From NCBI RefSeq assembly GCF_000296465.1, contig NZ_JH815205.1, positions 387,109-451,108 on the forward strand: a stretch of 64,000 nt of DNA, written 5' to 3'. The position numbers and the translations under genes were made by a program. Below, piece by piece: positions 34,556 through 64,000 of the stretch. The notes below the pieces were generated by a model. It had not been told where the DNA came from. It ran no database searches and saw nothing but the letters and a program-made list of their open reading frames with translations. This DNA is from Barnesiella intestinihominis YIT 11860 (lineage in GTDB: Bacteria > Bacteroidota > Bacteroidia > Bacteroidales > Barnesiellaceae). Within the stretch, counting starts at the first letter, position 1; every line of letters begins with the position of its first letter.

Positions 34556-34686
34556 AGTAAACCTCCTTATATTTTGTGTTTTGTAAAAGTAAGAAAAAAT
34601 CTGTTTTTCACAATAATCGGCAGCCACTTTTTTCAAAAATATTTTATATTATATCATCATGCCATAAAATCACTTCTTCCCGATTC

Positions 34687-39548: not shown

Positions 39549-42527
39549 ATGAAAAAGATAATTGCCTGTATCGGGACGTTTTTTGCTTTGGTAGCCCTAT
39601 CTACGCAAGCTAAAAACCCGTATCTACTTCAAACGGCCGATCGGTCGGCTATGGAGCACTGGGTCGACTCGGTGTTCGAATCGCTTTCTCCCAAAGAGCG
39701 AATTGCACAACTGTTAGTTATTACAGTGCGCAACAGCGATACCCCGCAAAACCGTAAAACGTTACAAAGACTCATACAAGAACAAAAAATCGGGGGACTG
39801 CTTTTCGACTCAGGAACAGCAAAAGACCAAGCCAACTTAACAAACTACTGTCAGTCCTTATCCAAAGTTCCCCTGATGATCACTCTTGACGGAGAATGGG
39901 GGCTCGCCATGCGTTTGTCCGATACTCCGCGCTTTCCGGTCAACATGATGTTAGGAGCCGTTCAAAACGATTCTCTCCTCTACGAATACGGCCGTGCCGT
40001 AGGGAAGCAATGCAGGTGCATGGGCATACATGTCAATTTCGCTCCGGTTCTCGACATCAACAGCAACCCGCGTAATCCGGTAATCGGCAAACGTTCTTTC
40101 GGAGAGTCTTTAAAAAATGTCTCGTCCAAAGCTATCGCATACGCCAAAGGATTGGAATCCGTAGGAGTCATGGCCGTTGCCAAACATTTCCCGGGCCACG
40201 GAGACACCTCGGAAGACTCGCATAAGACACTCCCCCTTGTTCCTCATAGCAAGGGAAGGCTCATGAGTACCGAAATACCTCCATTCAAAGCATATATCGA
40301 CAGCGGGCTATCGGGCATAATGGTGGGGCATCTGAATATTCCTGCATGGGATGCCACCAATACCCCCTCTTCCTTATCGCCGATTATCACCCGCGAACTT
40401 TTATGCGACTCCTTAAATTTCGAGGGGTTAATATTCACCGATGCTTTAAAAATGAAGGGAGCATCGAAATTCGGCAATACGGCACTACGAGCCATACTCG
40501 CCGGGAACGACATCGCTCTGAACCCATCGAAACCCGAAGAACAGTTGAACAGCATTTTATCGGCTATCGAGCAAGGAAAGATAACTCAACAGGCCATCGA
40601 TGAAAAATGTAAAAAAGTGCTACGCTACAAATACGTTTTCGGATTAGCAAACTATACACCCATAAAAACCAAAAACCTTATCGAAGATTTGAACGCTCCC
40701 GAATACGATGCCCTTAACCGAAAGCTCAACAGCGAGGCCATGACCTTGCTACGTAACAGTCAAAATCTAATTCCTATCACACATTTGAACAAGGGCAGAA
40801 TCGCCGTTGTATCCGTGGGGAACGACACGGAATCGGTTTTCCAGAAAACAATAACGCTATACGCCGACAACGTAGGCCGTTTCGACGACAGCAATCCTCT
40901 GCCTTCATTGCTGGACACACTGAAACATTATGATAAAATCATACTGGCTGTACATAGCGGCAAAGCCGAACATAGAGCCAGAATCGGCCGTATATGCCAA
41001 ACCGGGAAAGCAATAGTCGCATGCTTTCTCTCCCCTTATCAGATGAATCGGTTAAGTCACGAATTGACTCATTGCAAAACGCTTTTATTAGCCTACGAAA
41101 ATACCTCGTTGGCACAAGAATATGCAGCACAAGCCCTATTCGGAGGATATGCCATAAAGGGAAAATTACCCGTAAGTTTAGAAGGTTCGTTCAAACTGGA
41201 AGAAGGCATATATATTCCAAAGTGCCGATTGGGATATGCGATTCCCGAATCGGTCGACATGGACAGCCGGATATTGTCTGCTGTCGATTCCATTATAGCA
41301 CAAGGGATTAAAGAAGAAGCATTCCCGGGCTGTCAATTATTGGTTGCCCGACAAGGAACAGTAGTCTGGAACAAGGCTTACGGATACTTCGACTACGAAA
41401 CTCACCGCCATGCAGTCGCCACAAACGACCTCTATGACTTGGCATCCGTCTCGAAAGCGACTGGTACTTTACCGGCTATCATGAAGGCTTATGACAACGG
41501 ACGTATAGACTTAAACAAACCGATGAGCAAATACTTCGCTCCACTGCGAAATACCGATAAAAAAAGTCTGACGATCAAGGAAGCTCTTTTACATGAAACC
41601 GGTATGCCTGCCTCATTGCAAATGACTTCGGTCATTATCGACCCCAACAGCTTCACGAAACCATTAATCAAGCGTAGGAAAAGTAGCATCTACTCCATAC
41701 AAATAGGGAATAACGCTTTTGCCAACTGCAATGCCCAACTACGCAAAGACCTACTATCCTCTCGGAAATCGGATCGATTTCCCATGATAATCGCCCAGAA
41801 TTTATATGGTTCGAAATCTTTACCCGATACCCTTATCAACCATATCATCGAGTGCAAATTACGCCCCTCCAAACGATACTTATATAGCTGCCTGAATTTC
41901 GTCTTATTGAAAGAGACTGTCGAAAGCGCCACCGGCATTGCAATGGACAAATATTTGCAGCAAAACATCTACGGACCCTTAGGCATGCAAACGACCGGAT
42001 ATCGCCCTCTCGACCGATTTCCAACCGAAAGAATCGCACCGACAGAATGCGACAACTTCTACCGGAAGCAACAACTGATAGGGTATGTCCATGACGAAAC
42101 AGCATGTTTTTTCGGAGGCGTACAAGGCAATGCCGGACTCTTTTCCAACGCCAACGATTTGGCTAAACTATGCCAAATGTGGCTAAACAAAGGGACATAT
42201 GGAAACGAAAGAATTTTATCCCCGAAAACCGTAGAACTGTTTCTGACAGAAAAAAGCTCGACCAGCCGCAGGGGGCTGGGATTCGACAAGCCCGATATGG
42301 AAAACCCGGAAAAGAGCCCTACGGCCATCGAAGCATCGGCCTCGACCATCGGTCATTTAGGCTTCACCGGCACTTGCTTTTGGATAGATCCCGAACAAGA
42401 ACTCATCTATATATTTTTATGTAACCGGGTATATCCCTCCCGCACGCATGATGCGCTATCTCAATTGAATATACGTCCCGAATTATTCTCGACCATTTAC
42501 AGGTCCATAAAAAATCATTCGAAATAG
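39549..42527 (+). CDS. GH3 beta-N-acetylhexosaminidase fused to a serine beta-lactamase-fold hydrolase
   Basis: A 992-residue exported two-enzyme fusion. Signal peptide 1-21. Residues about 35-375 form a GH3 NagZ-like domain: AKHFPGHGDTSEDSHKTLP contains the mobile His/Asp loop and GLIFTDALKMKGA the nucleophile Asp. Residues 375-580 form a GH3 C-terminal-like linker domain. Residues about 590-985 form a beta-lactamase/PBP-like domain with SVSK (S-x-x-K), YSC where YSN or YSD is usual, and GHLGFTGT as third motif. It may process muropeptides: a glucosaminidase linked to a peptidase or esterase. Same operon as the split nucleotidase. The Cys in the second motif may lower or change activity. Confidence 0.9.
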   Translation: MKKIIACIGTFFALVALSTQAKNPYLLQTADRSAMEHWVDSVFESLSPKERIAQLLVITVRNSDTPQNRKTLQRLIQEQKIGGLLFDSGTAKDQANLTNYCQSLSKVPLMITLDGEWGLAMRLSDTPRFPVNMMLGAVQNDSLLYEYGRAVGKQCRCMGIHVNFAPVLDINSNPRNPVIGKRSFGESLKNVSSKAIAYAKGLESVGVMAVAKHFPGHGDTSEDSHKTLPLVPHSKGRLMSTEIPPFKAYIDSGLSGIMVGHLNIPAWDATNTPSSLSPIITRELLCDSLNFEGLIFTDALKMKGASKFGNTALRAILAGNDIALNPSKPEEQLNSILSAIEQGKITQQAIDEKCKKVLRYKYVFGLANYTPIKTKNLIEDLNAPEYDALNRKLNSEAMTLLRNSQNLIPITHLNKGRIAVVSVGNDTESVFQKTITLYADNVGRFDDSNPLPSLLDTLKHYDKIILAVHSGKAEHRARIGRICQTGKAIVACFLSPYQMNRLSHELTHCKTLLLAYENTSLAQEYAAQALFGGYAIKGKLPVSLEGSFKLEEGIYIPKCRLGYAIPESVDMDSRILSAVDSIIAQGIKEEAFPGCQLLVARQGTVVWNKAYGYFDYETHRHAVATNDLYDLASVSKATGTLPAIMKAYDNGRIDLNKPMSKYFAPLRNTDKKSLTIKEALLHETGMPASLQMTSVIIDPNSFTKPLIKRRKSSIYSIQIGNNAFANCNAQLRKDLLSSRKSDRFPMIIAQNLYGSKSLPDTLINHIIECKLRPSKRYLYSCLNFVLLKETVESATGIAMDKYLQQNIYGPLGMQTTGYRPLDRFPTERIAPTECDNFYRKQQLIGYVHDETACFFGGVQGNAGLFSNANDLAKLCQMWLNKGTYGNERILSPKTVELFLTEKSSTSRRGLGFDKPDMENPEKSPTAIEASASTIGHLGFTGTCFWIDPEQELIYIFLCNRVYPSRTHDALSQLNIRPELFSTIYRSIKNHSK

Positions 42528-43282
42528 AACGACAATATCACCATATTCGATGTCGCTTTCTTCAAGGACTGAGTAAATTTAATATCGGCCAGATCCCTCA
42601 AATCATTTCGTTTCCGGTTAATGACGTCTGTAAGTCCGAAACAGAATTTCAATTCGGGAATCAATTTAAAATATGGTAAATAAAAGTCACAACCGAGGCC
42701 GATAGTCAAATAACCGTCGAATGTATTCAGTTTAAGCAAATCGTTTCTCTTTTTCGATACGTCGGCCGTTCCCATGACTCCCCCGATCAAGTATGGACGG
42801 AAATTATTACAACGCAAAGCACTGAACTTCAATTCGAGAGGAACGACGATATAATTCGATTTAATGTCTTGTGTCCGATATTCCTGCGTCGCCGTCTCTC
42901 TAAACTTCACCACTTTATTCCCGAAAAATATACCCGGCGAAAATCTCAAATTCAAATGGGGGCACAAATAAAGGTCGGCCATCAAATTCACATTGAACCC
43001 GGGTGAAAAATCGGGAATATCCATGTACCAACTTTCTCCACCATCGGTAACGAAACCCGAATGTACAAACTTCATATCTTGCACATGCGTACCAATAGAA
43101 AAGCCCAAATGCAAGAGTTTATGATCTGCATACGGTAAATTCTGTACTTTACGAGGTTGAGCACATACACATACCGGCCACAACAACGCTATGCACGCCA
43201 CGAAAACGTACAATCGTCCCACGTATCTACGGACCGTAAATCCATGTAATACTTTCCCTTGTATATCACTACCTCTATTCAT
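42515..43282 (-). CDS. porT: T9SS component PorT (SprT-like) outer membrane beta-barrel
   Basis: A 255-residue beta-barrel protein. After a long N-region with basic residues and a signal segment (LYVFVACIALLWPVCVCAQ), the mature protein begins with NLPYADHKLLHLGFSIGTHV, which corresponds to the PorT/SprT N-terminal signature (Pro-x-Tyr-Asp-x-Lys-...-HFGF-x-LG). PorT is required for type IX secretion in Porphyromonas. Six proteins in this window carry T9SS sorting domains, which agrees with this call. Its 3' end overlaps the convergent GH3 fusion gene by 13 bases. ATG 43282 chosen; the frame to 43378 adds a basic non-signal extension. Confidence 0.8.
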   Translation of the reverse strand: MNRGSDIQGKVLHGFTVRRYVGRLYVFVACIALLWPVCVCAQPRKVQNLPYADHKLLHLGFSIGTHVQDMKFVHSGFVTDGGESWYMDIPDFSPGFNVNLMADLYLCPHLNLRFSPGIFFGNKVVKFRETATQEYRTQDIKSNYIVVPLELKFSALRCNNFRPYLIGGVMGTADVSKKRNDLLKLNTFDGYLTIGLGCDFYLPYFKLIPELKFCFGLTDVINRKRNDLRDLADIKFTQSLKKATSNMVILSFYFE

Positions 43283-43371
43283 AGTACGATAACTATTTAT
43301 CAAACGGAAAAACAAGCGGTATATTGTTCCACAGGAATTGTATTTGACACACAAATTCCTACTCCTTTTCT

Positions 43372-43401
43372 TTTGCAATAGAGATAAAAATGCTACTTTT
43401 G
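43372..43401 (+). promoter_or_regulatory. Promoter of the ferredoxin gene
   Basis: TTTG (43372-43375), 18 bases, TACTTTTG (43394-43401), 44 bases before ATG 43446. Confidence 0.55.
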
Positions 43402-48259: not shown

Positions 48260-48273
48260 ATCCCTCTAATCTA

Positions 48274-49563
48274 TCAACTCTTGACCTCTACTCCGTCATA
48301 GGTTTCCGTTTCGGCCTTCGTACCATTTGCATCTATCGCCGTATGCTGTTGCTCTATCAAAGAGGGCACACACTCGGTATTGAAATCGGCAGACGAATCG
48401 TTGGTATCCTTCAATACCCGACGACCGTCACGGGTGAGATAAAGCATTTTTCGACGCACACTTTTGAAATAGCGAGTCTTATCGTGGTCTATCGTACCAC
48501 AGTGTGTCCACCCCCGGTCCAACGAAGGGGCCGTGACATTCCACACATACTCCGATTGTACACTGGTATTCACTGCATCGATAATCCATTCGTTCGGTAC
48601 TTTATAGGCGGTTTGCTCCATCGGGAAAGTCCCGGCCGGTAAAACCATAACATAGGAATAGGTATATAAATTTTCGGTCAAGAATTTTTCTTTTTCAATG
48701 GGAATTCTCGCTATGGCAAATCCCCTGAATCCCCGATTGTGGAGAACCCAAAAACTTTTCGTGTAACAATACCACTTATCGAGATTAGGAACGGTCGGAC
48801 TGTCTATATCCAAATGAGCAGGAACCGAGGATTCGTCATACCACTCATAATCCGCCCGACTCAAATCAAATGAATTGGGATTCGCGATACGATGGTCTAT
48901 ACCCGTATCGCAAAGAATAAACGACTCTCCGGGAGCGACCGGATGGTCTGTCCCGCTACCGGGGATTACATACACAGCCTGTACAGTCATGTGAGTGCTC
49001 ATAATATCGGGTGTATAATCGAATTTTTGGGTCGTAACAAATTTCGACTCCATCAAAGCGACCCCATCGGCATATAGCATGTGATCGGTATTGTTATAGA
49101 TTTTCACATAACCATCTCCATAGTATTGTTTTCCAGAAGACTGCAATGTCCCGGTAAAAAATATTTCCTCTATAATGAAGTCGTCTTTATTCTCTACCTG
49201 ATAACTACCGATAGAAACACTTCCTTGTGCTCCCATAAGCTCCAATGACCTAGCATACCCGGATAACGAAGTATGAATTGTGCTATCGGCAGTCTGATAA
49301 GTTATCGCAGCTTCATAAGAACAATCGTATAATCCCTCGGGCAATGTAATTCCTTTACGGGTCGTAAAACTGGTAACCATACCCGACGTAATATTTCGAA
49401 ATTCAAAGGTTTCACTTTCCACAGAAATCCCCGACAAATCCGACGGATACTGGACATCGATTTCGACAGTCGTCCAACGTATATCCCGTTCCTCGTCGCA
49501 ACTGCAAAACAAAGCCAACATGCATAAGGAAACATAGAGTGTAATTCTATTCATATATTTCAT
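48274..49563 (-). CDS. DUF4876 surface lipoprotein
   Basis: A 429-residue lipoprotein: signal ends LALFCSCDEE, with the lipid cysteine followed by acidic residues like the Bacteroides surface-export signal. Residues about 30-120 look like a beta-sandwich domain (TVEIDVQYPSDLSGISVESE); from about 125 the DUF4876 region (FIIEEIFFTGTLQSSGKQYY, KIYNNTDHMLYADGVALMES) follows. Likely the substrate-binding partner of the TonB receptor encoded 18 bases upstream. The ligand is not known; similar operons are often thought to serve metal or cofactor uptake. ATG 49563; a TTG two codons upstream is less likely. Confidence 0.82.
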   Translation of the reverse strand: MKYMNRITLYVSLCMLALFCSCDEERDIRWTTVEIDVQYPSDLSGISVESETFEFRNITSGMVTSFTTRKGITLPEGLYDCSYEAAITYQTADSTIHTSLSGYARSLELMGAQGSVSIGSYQVENKDDFIIEEIFFTGTLQSSGKQYYGDGYVKIYNNTDHMLYADGVALMESKFVTTQKFDYTPDIMSTHMTVQAVYVIPGSGTDHPVAPGESFILCDTGIDHRIANPNSFDLSRADYEWYDESSVPAHLDIDSPTVPNLDKWYCYTKSFWVLHNRGFRGFAIARIPIEKEKFLTENLYTYSYVMVLPAGTFPMEQTAYKVPNEWIIDAVNTSVQSEYVWNVTAPSLDRGWTHCGTIDHDKTRYFKSVRRKMLYLTRDGRRVLKDTNDSSADFNTECVPSLIEQQHTAIDANGTKAETETYDGVEVKS

Positions 49564-49581
49564 AATCAAAAATTTAATCTA

Positions 49582-52554: not shown

Positions 52555-54339
52555 ATGAAAAAATTCTTACTTTCTACACTCCTCTTTATCGGAGGAATTT
52601 TAGGATCGATACAGGCAGAGGGTCCTGTATTTCAATGGGCGAAATCCTTAGATGGAAATCCCGGGAACGGAGGTGACAATGCTCACAGTTTGATAAAGAG
52701 CAGCGACGGAAAAATTCTGGCGCTCGCACAATTCGGGTCGATGAAAGACAACGATCCTGTTTACTATGGAGATGACATTGTCGGCTACGGTTGTGCTACT
52801 CAGGCAAACTCCGACAATTGTAATATCGTTCTTCTCAAATTAGATTCGGACGGGTCTAAAATATGGAGCCTATATAGCTTCTCCGGCGATGTAAGCATCT
52901 CTTCGAGTTCCATTGCCGCCACTTCTGACGGAGGTGCTGTCTTAGCATTAAAAATGAGATATGCATCCGGTATGACCGATAAAACCCCAGCATTCAAGGA
53001 TGCCAAAAACAACACCGTGACCATACAAAACTGGAATACCGGTTACCGTACATACTATGCGGTTCTACTAAAAGTCAGCTCGGAAGGAGTTATCGAATGG
53101 AACAAATACATCGAAATAGACAACAGCCCCGAAGCCGCCGCTACTTATTACACAGAAGGTACACCAGACGGCATTTACCCTTATGCTACCACCACCGACG
53201 AGAACGGGAACATCTATTTAGCCGGGAATTATCGTAAAACCATGACTTTTTACACGGCAGAAAATTCGCCTGTACAACTAATCCCTCACAACACCGTAAA
53301 CTGGAACGGTGATTCTCAAAAGACAGTAGGAGACTTGTTTATCGTAAAACTCGACGACAAAGGGAATTATTTGGGCCACTTTACAACCACAGTCTCCGGC
53401 ACAATCGAAAGAGAACAAATAACCCATCTCATCTACGACAACGGTAAACTCTATTTCTACGGAACTGTAAAAAACAGTAACGAAGGCTCGATCAATTTAG
53501 GCTCGATCAACCTCATGCCTTCGTCGTTCGACGACATTCTCATCGGGGAAATCGATACCAACTTAGACGTGAAATGGGCAAAATTAATAACAGCATTCGG
53601 AGCCAGCGACAGCAAGCACACAACCCAGACCAAGAACATGGACTATATAAACGGAAGTCTTTACCTTTCGGGAATGATGAAAGGAGGGTTCGCCCCTTAT
53701 GGAGAAGAGAAAGCCCGAATAGCCTCTAAATCTACTCCGCTCAATGGGTTTGTAATCAAATGCGATGCTTCAAACGGAGAATGGTTAGGAGGTGTCTCTG
53801 CCGACGAACAAGGTATCGGTGGTTATTTCGGAGTAGCCAAAGGGAAAGAAAACAATCTCTATGCCTACGGGTATAGCTGGGCAACCCCTAATAAAGGTAT
53901 TTGCCTAACCACGATAGATGAATCCAGTTGGGAAAAAACAGAAAAGATAGCCCTCATAACCGAAACCGGTATGGGTACAGCTTGGAGCTGTTTGGCAGAC
54001 GGTACAAATTTCTACTCCTTTTCAAGAGGTAATAAAGCCGTCAATTTCTATAATTCCGAATTTACCTTACCTGCACCCACTGGTTGGGGAATGTTCATAT
54101 CGAGCTGGAAACTCGACGATATAGCCACAGGGATAGAAACTCCAAATTTAGCCGGAAACGATACACGAATATACGGAGTGCAAGGAGGAGTAGTCGTCAA
54201 TACCGAAGAACCTATCGATGTGTATATCTACAACATCACCGGCGCACTGGTTAAACAAATAAAAGTAACCGGCAACGAAACAATAGAACTTCCCAAAGGT
54301 ATATATATCGCCAATAAGCAAAAAGTCATGGTTTACTAA
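52555..54339 (+). CDS. Exported propeller-like protein with T9SS C-terminal sorting domain
   Basis: A 594-residue exported protein. Signal peptide 1-21 (IQAEG). The body has repeated units of the type 'aspartate-glycine ... NIVLLKLDSDGSKIWSLYSF', 'YAVLLKVSSEGVIEWNKYIE' and 'LFIVKLDDKGNYLGHFTTT', the pattern of SBBP/YVTN-like beta-propeller repeats found in Bacteroidetes surface proteins. The last about 60 residues (GVQGGVVVNTEEPIDVYIYN ... LPKGIYIANKQKVMVY) form a type A sorting domain. Single-gene unit with promoter and terminator. Function unknown, likely cell-surface binding. Confidence 0.85.
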   Translation: MKKFLLSTLLFIGGILGSIQAEGPVFQWAKSLDGNPGNGGDNAHSLIKSSDGKILALAQFGSMKDNDPVYYGDDIVGYGCATQANSDNCNIVLLKLDSDGSKIWSLYSFSGDVSISSSSIAATSDGGAVLALKMRYASGMTDKTPAFKDAKNNTVTIQNWNTGYRTYYAVLLKVSSEGVIEWNKYIEIDNSPEAAATYYTEGTPDGIYPYATTTDENGNIYLAGNYRKTMTFYTAENSPVQLIPHNTVNWNGDSQKTVGDLFIVKLDDKGNYLGHFTTTVSGTIEREQITHLIYDNGKLYFYGTVKNSNEGSINLGSINLMPSSFDDILIGEIDTNLDVKWAKLITAFGASDSKHTTQTKNMDYINGSLYLSGMMKGGFAPYGEEKARIASKSTPLNGFVIKCDASNGEWLGGVSADEQGIGGYFGVAKGKENNLYAYGYSWATPNKGICLTTIDESSWEKTEKIALITETGMGTAWSCLADGTNFYSFSRGNKAVNFYNSEFTLPAPTGWGMFISSWKLDDIATGIETPNLAGNDTRIYGVQGGVVVNTEEPIDVYIYNITGALVKQIKVTGNETIELPKGIYIANKQKVMVY

Positions 54340-54482: not shown

Positions 54483-55685
54483 TTATCGATTATTCTCTTT
54501 ATCGATTGCGGCTAACCGTGCATACATTTCTACCATAGCGAACTGTGTCAACAGCCACTTCGAATCGTTTTTCGTTTTTCCGCTCCAATCATCGTTAAAC
54601 AAGCCGTTTTTCTCACGCATTTCCGTCCAAGCGAAATCCAGATTTTCTCTAAAAGCATCGATATACAAACTATTATGATCTATACCATACAGCTCAACGA
54701 ATCCCCTAAACATAATAGCGGTAAACCAAACATCACCCCGATTCAGTACTTTATATTTACGCCCCGACTGCGAATCGTGGCTAAAAAAACGATTGTAACA
54801 GGCGGCGGCCAGCCGTTGGGCCTCCTGCAAATATTTTTTTTCACCTGTAATTCGATACAAAAGCGCTGCCGATTGCATCATTTGTCCACTGTTATAAGCA
54901 AACTTCGCCCTACCGATTTCTCCGTTCAAACTCTTATTATCGAAATATAAACCGTCTGCGGGATCTTGCAGATTTTCTTTCGTCCACTCATACAATCGAA
55001 TTCCTGCTTGTAAGTAGGAACTATCGCCGGTCGCTAAAAAGAGTTTCGAAGCATACACCGACCCCGGAGCATTGGAACAGGTATTTTTCCCGTTCTTTTT
55101 CTGCTCGCACCAATATATGCCATATCCCAATTTATCATCGGTTCCACTTTCTATAAACCGCCAAACCATCTTGGCTTGCGAGAGATATTCTTTTTTCCCG
55201 GTCAATAAATACAAGTCGGTAAAATCGAGCCCTATCCAAATATTATCGTCATAGAATCTATCGGAAACCGGAGCCGTGTTTATATACGAAGCATACGCTG
55301 TCGGAGTTCTCTGCGTGTCGAGATACATTTCCAGCCCGGGACGAACCGTTTTAGTCAATACCTTTCGGAAATCGGACTTCGGTTTTACTTCCAGAAGAGC
55401 CGTAACGGCCGACAGGCTCCCCGAAAAAGGCCACAGATAGGAATATAGTTTCTGTTGCTCGGCCTGTTCTTGATTAGAAAGATAGGAGACTTTCAAATGG
55501 TTGTCAAAGGGATAAGTCTCCCTGAATAAAGGGACATCTTCAACTCCATAAAGTTTTTCAATGGCCTTGAACGTATCGGCCGCACGAGTATAGTTATCGT
55601 TCCCTGCAAAACTTTTTCCTGAAAAGAACAAAAGAAAAGCGAGCGCAAAGCAACGACCAAGCATAATTGAGAATAATTTCTTCAT
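54483..55685 (-). CDS. Glycoside hydrolase family 76 enzyme (alpha-1,6-mannanase-like)
   Basis: A 400-residue exported enzyme of the (alpha/alpha)6-barrel fold. Signal peptide 1-27 (GKSFAG). The adjacent aspartates typical of GH76 catalysis appear in RFYDDNIWIGLDFTDLYLLT; other family blocks are YSYLWPFSGSLSA, GYGIYWCEQKKNGKNTCSNA, and NSGQMMQSAALLYRITGEKK. GH76 enzymes cut alpha-1,6-mannan backbones of yeast and plant-pathogen glycans. It is the last gene of the minus-strand glycan cluster, 124 bases after the SusF-like gene, so a separate promoter is possible. No lipobox and no T9SS domain: probably periplasmic. Confidence 0.9.
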   Translation of the reverse strand: MKKLFSIMLGRCFALAFLLFFSGKSFAGNDNYTRAADTFKAIEKLYGVEDVPLFRETYPFDNHLKVSYLSNQEQAEQQKLYSYLWPFSGSLSAVTALLEVKPKSDFRKVLTKTVRPGLEMYLDTQRTPTAYASYINTAPVSDRFYDDNIWIGLDFTDLYLLTGKKEYLSQAKMVWRFIESGTDDKLGYGIYWCEQKKNGKNTCSNAPGSVYASKLFLATGDSSYLQAGIRLYEWTKENLQDPADGLYFDNKSLNGEIGRAKFAYNSGQMMQSAALLYRITGEKKYLQEAQRLAAACYNRFFSHDSQSGRKYKVLNRGDVWFTAIMFRGFVELYGIDHNSLYIDAFRENLDFAWTEMREKNGLFNDDWSGKTKNDSKWLLTQFAMVEMYARLAAIDKENNR

Positions 55686-55809: not shown

Positions 55810-57174
55810 TTATTTAACTATTACTTTATTGGAATACACAGCGTTACCGCAATTTACCCGAACAATGTACACGCCGCCATGAGCCATATCGAAAGAACAA
55901 TCGGAAACCATCGCTGTCGAAGCGACACAATTGCCCAACAAATCGAACACCATAACGTCATCGACAACAGCGCCATTGGTCAAAACCTGAATAGTCGACC
56001 CACTGACTGTCACAACGGGCTTAACAGCTGCCGAAACTTCCTCAATGGCAGTAGGATCGCCTTGTTCTACCAACAGAGTCAACGCATTGAGATCGACCGT
56101 CAACTTGTAATAGCCATCGGAGGGAACGGTAAACTTATTGTCATGGTTACCGGCAGTAAAATAGGAAATCGTATACGTTTCACCTAACGTAATGAGTTGA
56201 TTTCCCTCTTTTGTTTGATCGAATACAAAACAGTTTTCCCAATTTCCGGCAATGAGTTGATTGATAAATTTGAATTCCGTATCACCGTCTTCGGTGTTCT
56301 TGGCATACAAAAATCCATTCCATGTAAACACGCCTTCGCTTACTCTTGTCATTTCAATTCCGTCCTCGGTTTTCCAAGCTCCCGGTTCTCCTTTCATGGC
56401 ACTACCGATCAGATATAAATGATCATAGTCGATTTTTGTAACCTCCATTTTCACGGTATTCAAATCGATCGTAATCGTATAAGTGGCCGTAGAAGCAATT
56501 TGGTATTCCGCAGTGGCGACTCCATCGGCACTGAAAACCGGTGTATAAGTGCCCGATTTAACCTCCGATGCATTCGCAGGATTCAAAGATTGGCTATTGT
56601 CGTTACTTACGATATAGAAACCGGTCACGGGTTCTCCCACTTCAAGTTTTCCTTTCCATGTATAAACGCCGTTCGCTTCTTTCGTCATAGCGACTCTTTC
56701 GGGGAATGCGCTACCGGCTAAATAGGCCTGTCCGAATTTCTCGACATCAAGAATGTCCAAAGAACTTTCTGTCAAAGTCATCGTTTCTGCATCCAAGTCG
56801 ATCGTAATCGTGTATACCCCGGTTTTTTCTACTTGGAAAGAGGTGTCATAACCTCCGTGTTCGCCTTTGTCATACAACTTTGCGGGAACACCCGGAGTGA
56901 CAATTTCGTGATCGGGCACATCGGGATTAGGTGCAAGACAAGGATCCCAGCCTCTTCCTACCAAGAATTTGAATCGACGGTCTCCCGTTTTATCCAATAA
57001 CTCTCCCGTCCATGTAAATTGGCCGTCTCCGACCTTCGTCATTTCAAGAGCATCCTTAGGGCTCCAACCTGCTGCACAAGCATCTCCGACAACATACAAA
57101 TTGTCATAATGATTGATAGCCGACATACCGAATACGGCCAACAAACACGCGATTAAAAATGTAATCTTTTTCAT
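55810..57174 (-). CDS. SusF/SusE-like starch/glycan-binding protein with T9SS sorting domain
   Basis: A 454-residue exported protein with three CBM-type repeats, each a sandwich with the pattern 'LY(V/L)(V/I)G-A ... M-K-x-G-x-(F/Y)-TW-G' (NHYDNLYVVGDACAAGW, KFGQAYLAGSAFPERVAMTK, DYDHLYLIGSAMKGEPGAWK). This is the SusE/SusF repeat. The signal peptide (AVFGMSAINHYD) has no lipidation cysteine, unlike classical SusE/F lipoproteins; instead the C terminus is a T9SS type A domain (VMVFDLLGNCVAST ... GGVYIVRVNCGNAVYSNKVI). So it is probably surface-attached by T9SS. It lies 35 bases after GH97. Confidence 0.88.
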   Translation of the reverse strand: MKKITFLIACLLAVFGMSAINHYDNLYVVGDACAAGWSPKDALEMTKVGDGQFTWTGELLDKTGDRRFKFLVGRGWDPCLAPNPDVPDHEIVTPGVPAKLYDKGEHGGYDTSFQVEKTGVYTITIDLDAETMTLTESSLDILDVEKFGQAYLAGSAFPERVAMTKEANGVYTWKGKLEVGEPVTGFYIVSNDNSQSLNPANASEVKSGTYTPVFSADGVATAEYQIASTATYTITIDLNTVKMEVTKIDYDHLYLIGSAMKGEPGAWKTEDGIEMTRVSEGVFTWNGFLYAKNTEDGDTEFKFINQLIAGNWENCFVFDQTKEGNQLITLGETYTISYFTAGNHDNKFTVPSDGYYKLTVDLNALTLLVEQGDPTAIEEVSAAVKPVVTVSGSTIQVLTNGAVVDDVMVFDLLGNCVASTAMVSDCSFDMAHGGVYIVRVNCGNAVYSNKVIVK

Positions 57175-57209
57175 AATTTTTATTATTAAGTTTAACAAAA
57201 GAATCTACT

Positions 57210-59708
57210 TTACCGACCTATCAATACCTTTTTGGTAAATACCTTATCCTCAGTATGCACCTTTACGAGATAAACTCCTTTCTCATCTACCGACAAAGAA
57301 GCCCGACCACCGTCGAAACTGCCTTCTTTAAGGATTTGTCCGAGCGAATTATAGACCCAATAATCGGTAGAAGAAGACTGCTCGATAACGATATGTTTGT
57401 CAAGAGCATAAACCTTCCCCACCGGCTCGGCGCTCTCAGGGGTCTCGATAGCGGTAGTACCATCGGCATATTTCGACAGAGTCATGCGGTCTATATTAGG
57501 GCCATACTCCGAATTATTCCCGATTTCCACCGTATTGCTTGCCGTGTGATCGAGGTCTACCCATATAGTTTTATGGGCCAAATTACCGCCGCTCGTTCCT
57601 CCTGTACCGACAAATGAGACCTCTTGCCAAGAATCCATATTACCGTTCATCTTTACATAGGCCGTACAAGGGGCATCGGACATATAGTAAACGGTCATCG
57701 CATAAGTGCCCGATTCAGGGACTTTTACATCGTTGAAAGTAATGGAACGTCCATTTCCTATCGAAGCCACATATTTCCCACCCGAGCACAAACTATCTGT
57801 ATCGGTCTTAACCGGTACACCGAACGGAATCGTATTGCCATCGGCCTCAGCCTCATATTTCATGAAAATAGGTTTAGGAAGTTGCGAAGACGTAGAGAAC
57901 AAAACAGCCGCTCCCCCATGTTTTAACAAATCGATCGACACCGTATCTTTCGATGTCAAATTTCCTTTCCATTCGAATTGAATTTCCGACGGACATTCAC
58001 CATCTTTATAAATGTACGCATTGTATCGTTCACCGGAGGATAAAAACGAAAGAGGCACGGACACGGTGCGGGCATCGTGTGTCAGCGAAGCGAAATACCA
58101 CTCATTGCCTTTGCAGCGTACGATACTTACATATTCGTCGGGAACAGCTTCAAGGCAGCGGGTATCGTCCCATGCAGCCGGTACAGTCTTTAAAAATTCC
58201 CGGGCAATGTTATATTCGATATTTTCGGGAGCGTCGCCGATATGTTGTACTCCCGATTCAAAAACTACCGATAAAGCCAACTGGTGCGCTGCTGTCGTCT
58301 TTTGATGGATGCACCCGTTTTTATCGGCAAAATCTACCGGGACATAATCGGTCGACCCGATAGCCCCTCGGATAATCGCCGAGTTTATATTGTGGATATC
58401 GGGAAAAGTCGTAAAAACCGTATTCTCCAACACGGCCTCAGATGTCAGCAAATGCGGCCATGTTCTCCTCAAACCGGTCGGTTTAGTACAGGCATGTAAA
58501 TTAAGTAACAACTGCTTTTCGGCCGTTACCTTCAAAAGCAAATCGTATTTCTTCATCATAGCCTGATCGTCACTTTCCCAAAAATCGACTTTCAACCCTT
58601 TAACTCCTTGTGCCTTCCAATTCTGTACCATAGAAGCCATCGCCGACTCATCGGAAGGAAGCGAGTTTTGATTCACCCATACGAACACTCCCACCGATTT
58701 GGAGGATGCATAATCCACTACCTCTTTCAACGAAACACCGTTCTGCTCCCAGCATTTGTCCAATGTGAAATATTCCCAACCTTGCTGTTTAGCCCAATCT
58801 ATATATTTCTTAATGTTACTCATGCTAAGATAATCGGAGTGGAAGTCTTCTCCGCCGAAATTCCATACAGCACGTCCGGGTTTTACCCACGACAGATTAG
58901 TCAAGGCCGTTTTATCGTTCAAATTTTCCAATATAACCGACTCTGCTATCGATTCTAAGGAACCCACCATGAGAACTCTCCACGGCGTATACAAGGGAAG
59001 GGTAGCAGCGACATTCCCAACCAGCCGGTAACCGTAGGCTTTCGTCTCTTCATTCACAAACAACGAGCTTCCACAATAATTCCCATTGACCATCGCTTCG
59101 GTCAACAACAGATAATCGCTTCCCGTATGAACCAGCAATGGCAACGGGGTATATAGTTCACATGCCATAAATTCTGTATCGTTCTCTTCATAAAGAGCCT
59201 GATTATTTTTGGTATATTGCTGTGAATAAACTTTTTCCTGTCTTACCGGCAAACATTCGCTATTTTCGGCATAAACCGAAATGTCTCCGCTACCGAGAAT
59301 CGCATAGCGGTAAGCCACGCCATCATCATACACCCGAAAAATAAATTGTACGGTATGTCCGTCTTTATTACATGAAACTGTCGCCTCTTTATATGTATTA
59401 TCATATCGACTGCGCTTTCCCGACGGTAAGCTATACGAATCGTCCACCAAACGTTCGGTAAAAGAGGGTTCGCTCAATCCCGTTGAAAAATCGCCTACCG
59501 AAGTGGTAATTCCCAAAGCCGATTTTTCCACAATAGAGGTAACCCCTTTCACGACCTTATAATACAAAGCATCGTTATCGCTCACGACAACAAGTTTTAT
59601 AGAATCGGAGGGAGAGACGGTTTCTCCGACGACAGTCTCACCCCATACCGGGCAGGCTCCTGCCATCATCGCGCCGACCAAAAGACCATATATACATTTA
59701 TTTTTCAT
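57210..59708 (-). CDS. Glycoside hydrolase family 97 enzyme with CBM35-like module and T9SS sorting domain
   Basis: An 832-residue exported enzyme. Signal peptide about 1-23. N-terminal GH97 beta-sandwich (25-280), catalytic barrel (about 285-560: WEYFTLDKCWEQNGV, GLKVDFWESDDQAMMKKYDL, HACTKPTGLRRTWPHLLTSE), C-terminal GH97 domain (560-640). GLKVDF places an Asp where retaining GH97 alpha-galactosidases have their nucleophile, so a retaining mechanism is suggested. Then a CBM35-like module (about 640-760, MKYEAEADGNTIPFGVPV) and a T9SS domain (WVYNSLGQILKEGS ... GVYLVKVHTEDKVFTKKVL). SusB-type GH97 enzymes are periplasmic; this one is predicted outside the cell. ATG 59708 preferred to an upstream TTG. 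Confidence 0.92.
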   Translation of the reverse strand: MKNKCIYGLLVGAMMAGACPVWGETVVGETVSPSDSIKLVVVSDNDALYYKVVKGVTSIVEKSALGITTSVGDFSTGLSEPSFTERLVDDSYSLPSGKRSRYDNTYKEATVSCNKDGHTVQFIFRVYDDGVAYRYAILGSGDISVYAENSECLPVRQEKVYSQQYTKNNQALYEENDTEFMACELYTPLPLLVHTGSDYLLLTEAMVNGNYCGSSLFVNEETKAYGYRLVGNVAATLPLYTPWRVLMVGSLESIAESVILENLNDKTALTNLSWVKPGRAVWNFGGEDFHSDYLSMSNIKKYIDWAKQQGWEYFTLDKCWEQNGVSLKEVVDYASSKSVGVFVWVNQNSLPSDESAMASMVQNWKAQGVKGLKVDFWESDDQAMMKKYDLLLKVTAEKQLLLNLHACTKPTGLRRTWPHLLTSEAVLENTVFTTFPDIHNINSAIIRGAIGSTDYVPVDFADKNGCIHQKTTAAHQLALSVVFESGVQHIGDAPENIEYNIAREFLKTVPAAWDDTRCLEAVPDEYVSIVRCKGNEWYFASLTHDARTVSVPLSFLSSGERYNAYIYKDGECPSEIQFEWKGNLTSKDTVSIDLLKHGGAAVLFSTSSQLPKPIFMKYEAEADGNTIPFGVPVKTDTDSLCSGGKYVASIGNGRSITFNDVKVPESGTYAMTVYYMSDAPCTAYVKMNGNMDSWQEVSFVGTGGTSGGNLAHKTIWVDLDHTASNTVEIGNNSEYGPNIDRMTLSKYADGTTAIETPESAEPVGKVYALDKHIVIEQSSSTDYWVYNSLGQILKEGSFDGGRASLSVDEKGVYLVKVHTEDKVFTKKVLIGR

Positions 59709-59741
59709 TGTCAATATTTACTTCCTGTTTCTACAATAAAG

Positions 59742-61325
59742 CTACTTCACGATTACTTTTTGCACGACTTGTTCTTGCTGTACAATTATTCCCACCAGAT
59801 AAGCACCGGGCGGAACAGGTATTCTATTCACACGACCTGTTATCTCGCTCTCGTACACAATTTGGCCGGACAAGTTCACTACTTTACAAAATCCATCGGA
59901 ATCCATAGTAATTACAATCTCGTGATTCTGCGTAGCGACATCGATTCCTTCGGTTACCGGTTTTGTAACAGAAGACGGTTTGTCACTGCCGAACAACTGC
60001 CATTTCAAAAGCTGAAAGGAGTCGGCTCCGTTATTTTCGACCGTTCTCAAACGATAGCCTTTATATAATTTAGTACCATTTACTGCGAATTTCATAGTTG
60101 CATACCGGCAAGGGAATACAAATCCATTGACTTCGCTTACGGCTTCCCAGTCTTTGTCAAAGCCTTCGACGACCCAACTCTTAGGGTCTCTCTCAGGATA
60201 ATCCTGACACGAAGTCAACGTATAATAGTCCAATCGATACGGTTTATCCAGTTCTACCTCGACATTGAATACCGGGCTTTCGTCGCTATAATACTTCCGT
60301 TGCATATCCCGGTCGAAAAGATTAAAATATCTTTCGTCGGCAATCGTAAAGGCTCCGAGCGGAGAACCTATCACATTGGAAAAGACATCGACATTTTCGG
60401 TAATATCTGCCGGGAAATTTTTATGATCGGCCGATTCGTAATAAGGTATCCCGAACAATTGTATTTCCCCGACATTCCGCCCTTTCGTATCGATACGATA
60501 ATATCGGGCTGCCTTGCCTGCATCCGCATGGGGTTGACGGCTTATCGTAAACAAGGTAGCCGCGCTGTAACGGGTAGAGCCTCCGGAATTCAATTGCGAG
60601 TAATTTCTCCCGTCGACCGAATATTCAAGGCTCCATGAATCGACATTTTGAGATGTCACTTCTCCCTCGGAAAATAGATAACCCGTAACCAGACAAGGGT
60701 CTGTACAGGTAACATATATGTAATCCGAAGCAGCCTGTAAATCATAAACCGTGTATTCATCGTTATCATTCAGGGCAGACCCGGAAATATCTTTTCCACC
60801 AATCGTGATTGCAGCATTGTCGGTAAGGTCGTAAGCGTAAGCTGCTTTCATCTTTTCGGGCTTCGGCATTTTAACCTCGGTCTCCCAGATTTCAAATTTA
60901 TCTATATTAGGGCCACCGCCATTGTAAGGAGTGATTTTTATCGTATTATCGCCCTTATCGAGATAAATATACGAAAGCATCATACCGACCGGAGGGCGGT
61001 TCCAATCTTCTGTCGTCTCCGTCATACCTATCACCACCGGTGCATAAAATCCCGTTTGGACGGCTATGGAACGTATGAACATGCTCGTGTAATAGGTACG
61101 GAACTCATAAGTGCCCTCCTTATCGACATAGACATTCCTAAACAAAATCTCGGATCCATTGTCGTTGTCCCCCACATAGGCATCTCCCGAATATCCATTC
61201 ACATATTTGACCTTTACCGGAGGTGTGAGAACCGCATCCTCTGCTTCCAAGACTAAAAGCGGATTTTGAGCGCACAAGCCGGCAGCAGGCAACAAAGAGA
61301 GTAATAAAATCTTAAATTTTTTCAT
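59742..61325 (-). CDS. Carbohydrate-binding protein (CBM35-like and discoidin-like domains) with T9SS sorting domain
   Basis: A 527-residue exported protein. Signal peptide 1-20 (AAGLCAQ). Residues 22-150 form a CBM35/CBM6-like sandwich (LVLEAEDAVLTPPVKVKYVN, GGGPNIDKFEIWE). A discoidin/F5-8-like region, probably in two parts (about 175-300 and 330-445), contains SWSLEYSVDGRNYSQLNSGG and SWVVEGFDKDWEAVSEVNGF. The C terminus (CKVVNLSGQIVYESEITGRV ... GAYLVGIIVQQEQVVQKVIV) is a type A sorting domain. No catalytic domain: probably a surface glycan-binding partner of GH97, whose gene follows 33 bases downstream. ATG 61325 starts a proper signal peptide. Confidence 0.85.
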   Translation of the reverse strand: MKKFKILLLSLLPAAGLCAQNPLLVLEAEDAVLTPPVKVKYVNGYSGDAYVGDNDNGSEILFRNVYVDKEGTYEFRTYYTSMFIRSIAVQTGFYAPVVIGMTETTEDWNRPPVGMMLSYIYLDKGDNTIKITPYNGGGPNIDKFEIWETEVKMPKPEKMKAAYAYDLTDNAAITIGGKDISGSALNDNDEYTVYDLQAASDYIYVTCTDPCLVTGYLFSEGEVTSQNVDSWSLEYSVDGRNYSQLNSGGSTRYSAATLFTISRQPHADAGKAARYYRIDTKGRNVGEIQLFGIPYYESADHKNFPADITENVDVFSNVIGSPLGAFTIADERYFNLFDRDMQRKYYSDESPVFNVEVELDKPYRLDYYTLTSCQDYPERDPKSWVVEGFDKDWEAVSEVNGFVFPCRYATMKFAVNGTKLYKGYRLRTVENNGADSFQLLKWQLFGSDKPSSVTKPVTEGIDVATQNHEIVITMDSDGFCKVVNLSGQIVYESEITGRVNRIPVPPGAYLVGIIVQQEQVVQKVIVK

Positions 61326-61548
61326 TCCTTCGCAAACTACAATTAAGCATAAGAACCACTTAGAATCTTTCCTAAACCAAAGACTCCAACAAGGATACTT
61401 CACAGTCGAAAAGGATAGAGAAACAACCGTTGTCCGAACAATATCTGTACTTACACGAGTTTTTCATGTTGGTAACATTCCAAGGGTTTTACATATCTAT
61501 GACACAAAAAACATCATACACCCTTATACCAAATGAAAAAAAATTTTA

Positions 61549-62100
61549 CTACCACAAATAGCTGTACTGATCGCCTAAAAATTTTTTGATTTTTTTCAAG
61601 GCCGTGGTTATCTGACCCTCAACGGTTTTTACCGAAATATTCAACCTCCGAGCTATTTCCTGATTCGTAAGATTCTCACTTCGGCTAAGCAAAAAAATGT
61701 TCCGACATTTGTCCGGTAAAGAAAAAACAGCCTCCTGAATCAAACGATATAATTCCTCGGTTTCAAGAGTAGACACACTGGTATTGATCGTAGAGACTTC
61801 CACTCCGTCGAGACCTACCGTCTCTTTCTTTTTTCTCAATTCATTCAAACACTTATTTTTCGCTGCTTGGAACAAATAGGCTTTCAGTGAAAGCTGTATC
61901 TGAAATGTCTCTCTGTTTTCCCATAAATAAATAAAAATATCCATCGCCAACTCTTCTGCCACATTCTTATCGTCCAAATGGAGATATATGAAACGGCACA
62001 AAGGAGTAAAATATGTTTCAAATAAAGATTTGAACGCATCCTCATTTCCTTCACGAATCTGCCTAAGCAATGATATGTCATTAGTGATATTCGCTACCAT
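61549..62100 (-). CDS. RNA polymerase ECF-type sigma factor
   Basis: A 183-residue sigma-70 family protein of the ECF group common in Bacteroidetes glycan loci. Region 2 (about 20-85): FETYFTPLCRFIYLHLDDKN, AEELAMDIFIYLWENRETF. Region 4 (about 115-175): LPDKCRNIFLLSRSENLTNQ, EIARRLNISVKTVEGQITTAL. The gene is divergent from fecR, whereas such pairs are normally in one direction. It faces the GH97/SusF cluster, 223 bases upstream of the first cluster gene. ATG 62100 (MVANITND) was preferred to 62121. Confidence 0.92.
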   Translation of the reverse strand: MVANITNDISLLRQIREGNEDAFKSLFETYFTPLCRFIYLHLDDKNVAEELAMDIFIYLWENRETFQIQLSLKAYLFQAAKNKCLNELRKKKETVGLDGVEVSTINTSVSTLETEELYRLIQEAVFSLPDKCRNIFLLSRSENLTNQEIARRLNISVKTVEGQITTALKKIKKFLGDQYSYLW

Positions 62101-62335
62101 TATTACAGGAAAACTATGCAAAGAAAATAATATTATTCAAGATAAAAAAATAATATTCACAGCAAAAATAAAAAAATATAAAAGCCTCGAAAGATTTCTA
62201 CTTATTGATTACAAAGTAATTATAAAATGGATATCTATACCAATCAGACATTTTTTCTTTTTTATTATCTACACATATAAGGGTCAAGCCCGATTTTTGT
62301 GTCTAAGTAATTGAAATCTTAAAATTCCATCAAAC
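62101..62335. promoter_or_regulatory. Divergent control region between sigma and fecR genes
   Basis: 235 AT-rich bases with no gene. It must contain promoters for both the ECF sigma gene and fecR. Neither strand has a full TTTG-N20-TAnnTTTG match, which is consistent with an alternative (ECF-dependent or weak) promoter; GATTTTTG at about 62291 is the nearest -7-like sequence toward fecR. Confidence 0.4.
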
Positions 62336-63361
62336 ATGAATAATAATCTTCCGTGGGATATAATCATCGCTAAATTCGAAGGAATCTCCCTATCAGAAGA
62401 AGAGCAATCGCAGCTACAAAACTGGTTAGCGGCCGATAACAAAAACAAACTTCTTTTCGATGAACTGAAAACCCTTTGGGATAGCATCCAAGCAAAATCT
62501 GCCAACTACAATCCCGATGTAGATTATTATTGGAAAAAATTCCAAGCCTATATTCACAAAGATACTATACAGAAAGAACCTATAAAGGTAAAAAAGATTG
62601 TTCCCCGGTTACATTTCGGCAAGAAACTAAACCGCATTGCCGCAGCTATCAGTTTATTATTAATCGTTTCGGGGATAGGGTATTATTTCTTTTCCAGCAA
62701 CAAATCTTTGAACAGAGAGACAATTGTCCAAACTTATTCGACAATTACAGGAAAATCGAAATTCATACTTCCCGATGGCAGTGAAGTATGGTTAAATTCA
62801 CATTCGAAGCTGGAATACAAAAATCTTCATGCCGACATGCGAGAAGTCGAATTGAAAGGCGAGGCTTTTTTTAAAGTTCAGCACGATGAAAGGCCGTTCA
62901 TTGTCAAGACCAGCGACATAGCGGTAAAAGTACATGGTACACAATTCAACGTAAGCGCCTACCATACTGACGAAAAATCGGTAGTGAGCCTATACGAAGG
63001 TTCGGTATCGATGCATGTATTGGGCGACGATAGCTCGAACTGTTATCTGAAACCGGGGGAAGAAGGCTTTCTCGATAAAAAAGACAAAACAATTCGGGTT
63101 GAAAAAGGAGACGTAGAATTTGCAAAAATGTGGACTAACGAAAAAGTCAAACTGGAAAACAAAAATCTTCATGAAGTTTGCAAATATCTTTCCAAATGGT
63201 ATAACGTGAACATCATCATCGACCCGGCTTTGCCCGACGATCAATCTTACACGTTTACCCTCCATGACCAAAGTCTCGAAGATATCATTCGTATCATGTC
63301 GAACATATCTTCGATAAACTACTACTTTACAGAAGACAACACATTAATGATAACCCTTTAA
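62336..63361 (+). CDS. FecR-family anti-sigma factor
   Basis: A 341-residue single-pass inner membrane regulator. Residues 1-95 form the cytoplasmic anti-sigma domain (GISLSEEEQSQLQNWLAADN, FDELKTLWDS); a transmembrane helix spans about 100-120 (IAAAISLLLIVSGIGYYFF); residues 135-260 are the FecR domain (YSTITGKSKFILPDGSEVWL, NSHSKLEYKN, VELKGEAFFKVQ, FNVSAYHTDEKSVVSLYEGS); residues 275-341 form a secretin/TonB-type STN-like fold (NLHEVCKYLSKWYNVNIII). It would hold the neighbouring sigma factor inactive until a signal comes from the SusC receptor encoded 134 bases downstream. Confidence 0.94.
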   Translation: MNNNLPWDIIIAKFEGISLSEEEQSQLQNWLAADNKNKLLFDELKTLWDSIQAKSANYNPDVDYYWKKFQAYIHKDTIQKEPIKVKKIVPRLHFGKKLNRIAAAISLLLIVSGIGYYFFSSNKSLNRETIVQTYSTITGKSKFILPDGSEVWLNSHSKLEYKNLHADMREVELKGEAFFKVQHDERPFIVKTSDIAVKVHGTQFNVSAYHTDEKSVVSLYEGSVSMHVLGDDSSNCYLKPGEEGFLDKKDKTIRVEKGDVEFAKMWTNEKVKLENKNLHEVCKYLSKWYNVNIIIDPALPDDQSYTFTLHDQSLEDIIRIMSNISSINYYFTEDNTLMITL

Positions 63362-63495: not shown

Positions 63496-64000
63496 ATGAA
63501 TCTAAAGAAAAAATTGGCTGTATTTCTAGCCATTTTATTCTCCTTGAACTTGTTTGCTCAAGCACCGGGAGAAACCATAACAATTTCTTTTCAAAACATT
63601 CCATTATCCGAGGCTATCAAAAAAATAGAAAGTGTAAGTAAATACACGTTCTTTTACGATGCCTTAAAATTGAATGTCGATCAAAAAGTATCGCTGAACG
63701 CCCAAAAGACACCTATTCAACAAGCAATATCCCAAATGCTTGGAAATTCGGGTATTAAATTTGAAATTAAACAGTCTCAAATCATCTTATATAACAAAAA
63801 CGTATCCTCTGATGAAAAAAAGATTTCCATACGAGGAAACGTTACAGATGTCAACGGCGAGCCGCTTATCGGTGTAACCGTCTCGGTAAAGGACAATCCC
63901 TCTATCGTGACTATCACCAATGTAGATGGTATCTATGACATAAAAGTGCCCGATAAAAGTGCCATACTACAATTCAAATACATCGGGTTCGCTTCTCGTG
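63496..64000 (+). CDS. SusC/RagA-family TonB-dependent receptor, N-terminal part (cut by window end)
   Basis: 168 codons are visible. Signal peptide 1-22 (LFSLNLFAQ), STN (secretin/TonB short N-terminal) domain about 25-95 (NIPLSEAIKKIESVSKYTFF, QAISQMLGNSGIKFEI) which contacts FecR in signalling receptors, and a carboxypeptidase-like domain from about 112 (ISIRGNVTDVNGEPLIGVTV, VDGIYDIKVPDKSAILQFKY). The TonB plug and barrel lie beyond the window and a SusD gene probably follows. The STN domain marks it as the transducing receptor of the adjacent FecR/ECF pair. Confidence 0.93.
   Translation, partial: MNLKKKLAVFLAILFSLNLFAQAPGETITISFQNIPLSEAIKKIESVSKYTFFYDALKLNVDQKVSLNAQKTPIQQAISQMLGNSGIKFEIKQSQIILYNKNVSSDEKKISIRGNVTDVNGEPLIGVTVSVKDNPSIVTITNVDGIYDIKVPDKSAILQFKYIGFASR

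Follow-up and report, generated by a model that had tools for sequence, protein, structure and literature searches.

A divergent polysaccharide utilization locus of Barnesiella intestinihominis appears to combine lipoproteins with cargo of the type IX secretion system

In the Bacteroides starch utilization system (Sus), SusE and SusF are both lipoproteins. The surface glycan binders of polysaccharide utilization loci (PULs) are commonly taken to be lipoproteins in general, and PMC7618045 (papers are cited here by such identifiers and from parts of their text) describes SusE, SusF, and SusG in this way. According to the same source, four-part utilisomes are known for levan and dextran. The locus described here lies in a 64,000-nucleotide stretch of the Barnesiella intestinihominis YIT 11860 genome (contig NZ_JH815205.1), referred to below as the window. 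Attention falls on three neighboring genes, which encode a SusF-like glycan-binding protein, a glycoside hydrolase (GH) of family 97, and a carbohydrate-binding protein. The favored reading, with a probability of roughly 72%, is that they belong to a divergent Barnesiella PUL whose products would reach the cell surface by two delivery routes. SusC and the lipoproteins SusD, SusE, and GH76 would make up an outer-membrane core. The second set, which pairs a type I signal peptide with a C-terminal sorting domain (CTD) of the type IX secretion system (T9SS), would comprise the SusF-like binder, the GH97, two proteins with carbohydrate-binding modules (CBMs), and a GH3.

How does this arrangement compare with those already described? 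Like the Bacteroides starch Sus (SusC-SusG), the locus encodes SusC, SusD, and two SusE/F-family binders; unlike it, only SusE is a lipoprotein here, while the SusF-like protein carries a CTD and lacks an N-terminal spacer domain. The dextran PUL of B. thetaiotaomicron (BT3087-BT3090; PMC7618045) also has SusC, SusD, one SusE/F-family binder, and an endo-acting GH, but its outer-membrane parts are lipoproteins or SusC, whereas this locus puts CTDs on a second binder and on several enzymes and has a GH76 as its endo-enzyme. The chitin PUL of Flavobacterium johnsoniae (PMC5127042) is similar in its SusC/D pairs, its T9SS-exported key enzyme ChiA, and its predicted lipoprotein ChiB; in the portion of that paper used here, however, the T9SS cargo is an enzyme and not a SusE/F-family glycan binder. 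Likewise, the cellulase cluster of “Candidatus Paraporphyromonas polyenzymogenes” combines the CTD enzymes Cel5A, Cel5C, and Cel5D with the lipoprotein Cel5B, although the excerpted account (PMC5831590) describes that genome as lacking archetypal SusC/D PULs, and the cargo here sits within one. The SusE of Tannerella forsythia is found in vesicles and bears no CTD mark in the part of PMC4604654 consulted, consistent with the lipoprotein class. T9SS-exported PUL enzymes and mixed clusters of CTD-bearing and lipoprotein enzymes are already known (PMC5127042, PMC5831590). No CTD-bearing SusE/F-family binder with a lipoprotein partner was found in the open-access literature, which was covered mostly at the abstract level; the scope for T9SS-borne SusE/F proteins takes in PMC4936053, PMC8810776, PMC12016534, PMC12611786, PMC10434189, and PMC7872030, each in part.

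The three genes form part of the minus arm of a single divergent PUL (Table 1). The window stops 0.5 kb inside SusC, and the plus arm continues past it (fetched stretch L044) with genes for SusD, SusE, a GH76, a GH31, a CBM6/F5-8 protein, and a GH3. With its SusC/SusD pair and the carbohydrate-active enzymes GH76, GH97, GH31, and GH3, the locus qualifies as a PUL, and the SusF-like gene shares it with SusC/D. Lipoboxes, assigned by eye or with a simple rule, are present on the plus-arm SusD, SusE, and GH76, while the GH31 has neither a lipobox nor a CTD. The SusE lipoprotein, built from PF14292 and two PF16411 domains, belongs to the same family as the SusF-like protein. CTDs are found on the plus-arm CBM protein (21.2 bits) and GH3 (24.0 bits) with a profile made from tails of the same genome.

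The original prediction held that T9SS sorting domains replace lipoprotein anchoring in this locus, so that the T9SS would have taken over both glycan capture and hydrolysis. All three of the studied proteins do carry a CTD, but the lipoproteins SusD, SusE, and GH76 are encoded in the same PUL just beyond the window. In a sister genome of the same genus (G003), the orthologs keep their CTDs, and SusE and GH76 are lipoproteins there too. Because the lipid and T9SS routes coexist, “replace” is too strong a word for the locus, and a takeover of the entire locus is rejected as quite improbable. On the sequences at hand, the exchange of anchors is a matter of the individual protein and not of the locus, and the T9SS appears to add to lipid anchoring instead of simply replacing it.

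Table 1. Genes of the window discussed in the text (coordinates are positions in the window)
Feature	Coordinates	Strand	Domains and remarks
PorT/SprT	42515..43378	-	NF052311, 225 bits (cut-off, 125); outside the PUL
GH76	54483..55685	-	PF03663, E 5.8e-38; signal peptide by eye; aspartate pair YDD
SusF-like glycan-binding protein	55810..57174	-	Signal peptide; three PF16411 domains; CTD at about 55813-56004
GH97, retaining type (by sequence)	57210..59708	-	PF10566, PF14508, PF14509; CTD at about 57219-57395
Carbohydrate-binding protein, CBM6 / F5/8-like	59742..61328	-	CTD at about 59745-59894
ECF sigma factor	61549..62121	-	PF07638, PF08281, PF04542; PUL center; 80% identity to G003
FecR-type anti-sigma factor	62336..63361	+	PF04773, PF16344; 75% identity to G003
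SusC (start)	63496..64000	+	STN and carboxypeptidase-regulatory domains; SusC 93% identity to G003

Are the three tails T9SS type A sorting domains, as had been predicted? In a genome search with TIGR04183 (cut-off, 23 bits), the SusF-like protein scores 28.6, the GH97 36.7, and the binding protein 26.9 bits, and when the entire proteins are run through hmmscan, the first two score 27.1 and 31.8 bits. TIGR04183 is imperfectly specific, with matches in 2 of 14 control genomes and matches above the cut-off in 1 of 14. A second profile, trained on 22 further tails from the B. intestinihominis genome, scores the three proteins at 32.1, 25.1, and 24.3 bits, respectively; at 10 bits or more it picks out 63 of the 472 open reading frames (ORFs) of the fetched loci but none of 472 reversed and none of 472 tail-shuffled sequences. 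By sequence, the SusF-like tail resembles the solved RgpB CTDs weakly (best E, 0.0022), and a profile of the three tails reaches them at E 2.7e-5, outranked by one unrelated chain at 5.6e-6. An AlphaFold2 model of this tail, with a mean confidence (pLDDT) of 87, has only four Foldseek matches at E <= 0.001, namely, the CTDs of RemZ, RemA, and RgpB (twice). For the full-length SusF-like protein, a fold predicted from the single sequence is poor (pLDDT, 51) and was set aside. All three tails sit at the extreme C terminus, and the G003 orthologs keep them, with 30.2 bits for the SusF-like protein, 17.5 for the GH97, and 22.9 for the binding protein on the own-genome profile. Could they nevertheless be ordinary immunoglobulin (Ig)-like C-terminal domains with no sorting role, on proteins that stay in the periplasm? 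Pfam PF18962 gives the SusF-like protein 20.8 bits against a cut-off of 27 and does not list the GH97 or the binding protein, and the similarity of the modeled SusF-like tail extends to other Ig-like folds, including those of DUF3244 proteins and beta-glucuronidase domains. However, the silence of the reversed and shuffled controls, the identity of all four significant fold matches as T9SS CTDs, and the conserved terminal position of the tails make this alternative highly improbable. The predicted type A C terminus is thus supported on all three proteins by TIGR04183 and the own-genome profile, and on the SusF-like protein by fold as well, with the binding protein borderline in hmmscan.

The proteins themselves differ in how closely they follow known relatives. 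Type I signal peptides are seen by eye in all three, and the start codon of each ORF was taken, again by eye, as the ATG before the signal peptide. The SusF-like protein belongs to the SusE/F glycan-binding family (PF16411, E 3.8e-21, above the cut-off), and its PF16411 domains begin directly after the signal peptide. It has no lipobox with a hydrophilic stretch behind it and, unlike Bacteroides SusF, carries a CTD in place of a lipoprotein anchor. The nearest solved structure is that of the dextran binder BT3088 (E 1.8e-16), and no SusF chain is among the matches listed. It is 60% identical to its G003 ortholog, and once the tail is removed, a search of the class sample turns up no relative at E <= 1e-15 among its 98 other genomes.

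The GH97 has a C-terminal galactose-binding-like module that matches 2WZ8. Its nearest structures are 5XFM (E 8.8e-50) and the retaining enzyme 3A24 (2.6e-49), with SusB (2D73) far weaker at 6.7e-25. It keeps Asp375 and Glu428, residues of the retaining type, which we take to be the positions of the nucleophile and acid/base of BT1871. On this evidence, it is a retaining-type GH97 and not a SusB-type one. The comparison with a periplasmic SusB-type GH97, on which part of the prediction leaned, does not hold, and since the enzyme is not SusB-type its predicted routing does not contradict the periplasmic place of SusB. The enzyme also contains a lipobox-like MAGAC. A lipoprotein reading of this motif was dropped because the sister GH97, 71% identical, lacks a cysteine there and keeps the CTD.

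As for the carbohydrate-binding protein, it has no Pfam match but matches the F5/8 region of GH92 and CBM6-type chains, and it is 35% identical to a CBM6/F5-8 paralog in the G003 PUL. Its G003 ortholog trips the simple lipobox rule (LLAAC), and the window protein does not.

Sorting domains require a secretion system, and here the original prediction fares well. SprA, two PorU homologs, PorL, PorK, PorM, PorN, PorP, PorV, and PorT are all found in the genome above curated cut-offs (the search covered the core set, with PorQ, PorZ, PorW, PorX, and PorY outside it), along with 85 TIGR04183 matches, 81 of them above the cut-off. The porT gene pointed out in the window is confirmed (Table 1), and because every searched core gene scores above its cut-off, the prediction survives on a point it had itself named as decisive, the presence or absence of these genes. 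The two PorU homologs are full length and lie 1.4 kb apart (L048, 6613-10047 and 11450-14860; genome G000, contig C3, about 291.6-299.9 kb) with two small ORFs between them and PorV after the second. They are 40% identical (452/1120), and each has a Cys and a His that align with those of the other in the peptidase region.

In the mechanism proposed, the lipoprotein core would act as a four-part utilisome, a putative complex of transporter, lid, glycan binder, and endo-enzyme. The CTD proteins would be exported by SprA/PorV, have their CTDs removed by PorU, and come to lie on the surface or outside the cell, where they could capture glycan and trim side chains away from the transporter. The CTD may have displaced the lipid anchor in one of the two SusE/F-family binders of the lineage, with the core binder still a lipoprotein.

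Several points weigh against this two-route reading. (i) Signal peptides and lipoboxes were assigned by eye or with a simple rule that misfires. (ii) The tail of the binding protein is borderline, at 22.0 bits in the TIGR04183 hmmscan and just below the cut-off of 23. (iii) Three CTD binders of 441 to 442 amino acids and two of 455 to 460 amino acids have no SusC/D in the fetched stretches, so CTD binders also occur outside PULs. (iv) The cargo could be released instead of attached. In this last case, the CTD proteins would be public enzymes and binders in the medium and not a tier of the cell surface. There is a precedent in F. johnsoniae ChiA, which is fully secreted and soluble (PMC5127042), and surface attachment of the CTD proteins here is itself putative. 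A binder without an enzyme domain would, however, be of little benefit once lost, and the two PorU sortase homologs would allow attachment. Release is considered unlikely on balance, though by no means negligible.

Is the two-route arrangement peculiar to this PUL? A dextran-type PUL with a GH66 occurs in seven Barnesiella genomes and in G045, and the GH76 here occupies the place held there by GH66. SusD, SusE, and GH66 are lipoproteins in 8/8 of these loci, which also carry a CTD-bearing SusF-like protein upstream of SusC. The GH31 has a CTD in 8/8 (one truncated by the stretch end), and the GH97 has none in the five loci where it is in view. In G017, where SusC is accompanied by lipoprotein SusD, SusE, and GH66, there is also a CTD binder, which clusters with a domain of the SusE of the same genome, without strong support. 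Taken across two PUL types (the window, G003, the seven dextran-type loci, G045, and G017), a lipoprotein SusE stands alongside a CTD binder in 11/11 loci, a further argument against a wholesale takeover by the T9SS. Dextran-type PULs without a CTD binder are seen in G023 and G026, within the stretches fetched. “Candidatus Phocaeicola faecipullorum” (L183) has a syntenic dextran-type PUL with one longer SusE lipoprotein of four PF16411 domains; PorM was not found in this draft genome, and no CTD binder was found in the PUL stretch. Extended beyond the window, the idea is tentative and falls somewhat short of even odds: Barnesiella and some other T9SS-bearing Bacteroidales may have a two-tier surface, in which a four-part lipoprotein utilisome imports oligosaccharides and the PUL that encodes it also supplies T9SS-exported binders and exo-enzymes, the SusE/F-family anchor having been exchanged repeatedly and never being of both kinds at once.

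How are the two anchors distributed among PF16411 proteins? A survey across the genus (9 genomes) and the order (119 genomes; E <= 0.001) yielded 99 distinct proteins with a readable ORF, the genus match G002:C26:23119 being left out. By rule, 64 are lipoproteins, 31 carry a CTD, 1 has both, and 3 have neither; curation by eye reassigned four, giving 65 lipoproteins, 34 CTD proteins, and none with both. The “both” case is a misfire of the rule on a cysteine after a type I signal peptide, and the three “neither” cases are one plain lipobox that the rule overlooked and two CTD-like ends at 0.9 and 1.8 bits. The 99 proteins share kinship, so a test of independence on these classes does not yield a probability. 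Lipoproteins make up 14/43 of the set within the genus versus 51/56 outside it (41 genomes). Outside the genus, CTD-bearing PF16411 proteins occur in G017, G045, G049, and G076. An earlier impression that CTD binders are nearly confined to the genus, drawn at E <= 1e-7 (1 of 27 resolved non-genus proteins), was rejected as partly a threshold effect, since G045 proved to have one that had been missed. SprA is present in 33/33 genomes tested (17 genomes from the looser survey, including the CTD-bearing G049 and G076, fall outside the test), which indicates that possession of a T9SS alone does not shift PF16411 proteins to it.

A single origin of the CTD class was also considered and rejected, as the CTD-bearing proteins do not form one clade in a tree built on 56 domains, which represent 19 members of the set of 99. 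Its well-supported branches force at least 3 anchor changes, and parsimony gives 10; a FastTree of all 258 PF16411 domains has 15 changes, against a shuffled mean of 72. Because the domains are short, with few columns and some long branches, no direction or exact number of changes is claimed. In the B. intestinihominis genome, PF16411 also occurs as the N-terminal module of CTD-borne enzymes, an esterase-like alpha/beta hydrolase (L045, 9609-11018) and a GH92 (L046, 7475-11227).

In the own genome, T9SS cargo is tied to PULs more broadly, with a pattern that speaks for replacement at one position. In 54 stretches, chosen mostly around CTD genes, 16 SusD genes are found; the next same-strand ORF encodes a lipoprotein after 8 of them, a CTD protein after 5, and neither kind after the other 3, a biased sample that gives no rate for all PULs. 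A lipoprotein is usual in this slot, and the 5/16 with a CTD neighbor suggest that other loci of the genome may show replacement there. The CTD proteins directly after SusD (L050, L198, L203, L212, and L222) occupy the usual place of a lipoprotein binder and are a GH123, an endonuclease/exonuclease/phosphatase-family protein, an FG-GAP protein, and two with no named domain but the tail. One of the last, L050 13919-15217, is a candidate for true replacement.

What would follow from two routes in one PUL? Localization pipelines that use N-terminal signals alone (as in PMC8636109) would label the CTD proteins periplasmic. Should the two-tier design prove real, a second extracellular compartment would have to be added to PUL models for gut Bacteroidales that bear a T9SS. 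How the binders of a two-binder PUL fit to one SusCD transporter is a question posed for starch (PMC7618045). Since the two binders here appear to exit by different machines, a T9SS mutation could separate them.

The remaining genes fill in the setting. Synteny of the PUL is kept in G003 (a comparison that excludes SusD and GH31, whose frames are overlain there by longer opposite-strand ORFs) apart from the window GH76, which has no separate counterpart in the G003 PUL. This GH76 has no lipobox by eye and no TIGR04183 match, and it and the plus-arm GH31 are expected to be periplasmic. With low confidence, the combination of GH76, retaining GH97, GH31, and GH3 could point to a branched substrate with alpha-1,6 linkages, for example, a decorated alpha-mannan. 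Adjoining the PUL, DUF6850 and DUF4876 proteins are encoded at 46730-52401 (minus strand), 3' of the ORF at 49582-52401, which by eye resembles a TonB-dependent receptor. Three more ORFs of the window have CTD-like ends on the own-genome profile: 52555-54339 (plus strand; 14.5 bits), a PUL neighbor without a Pfam match, 10596-14507 (plus strand; 21.4 bits), and 32411-34636 (minus strand; 67.2 bits).

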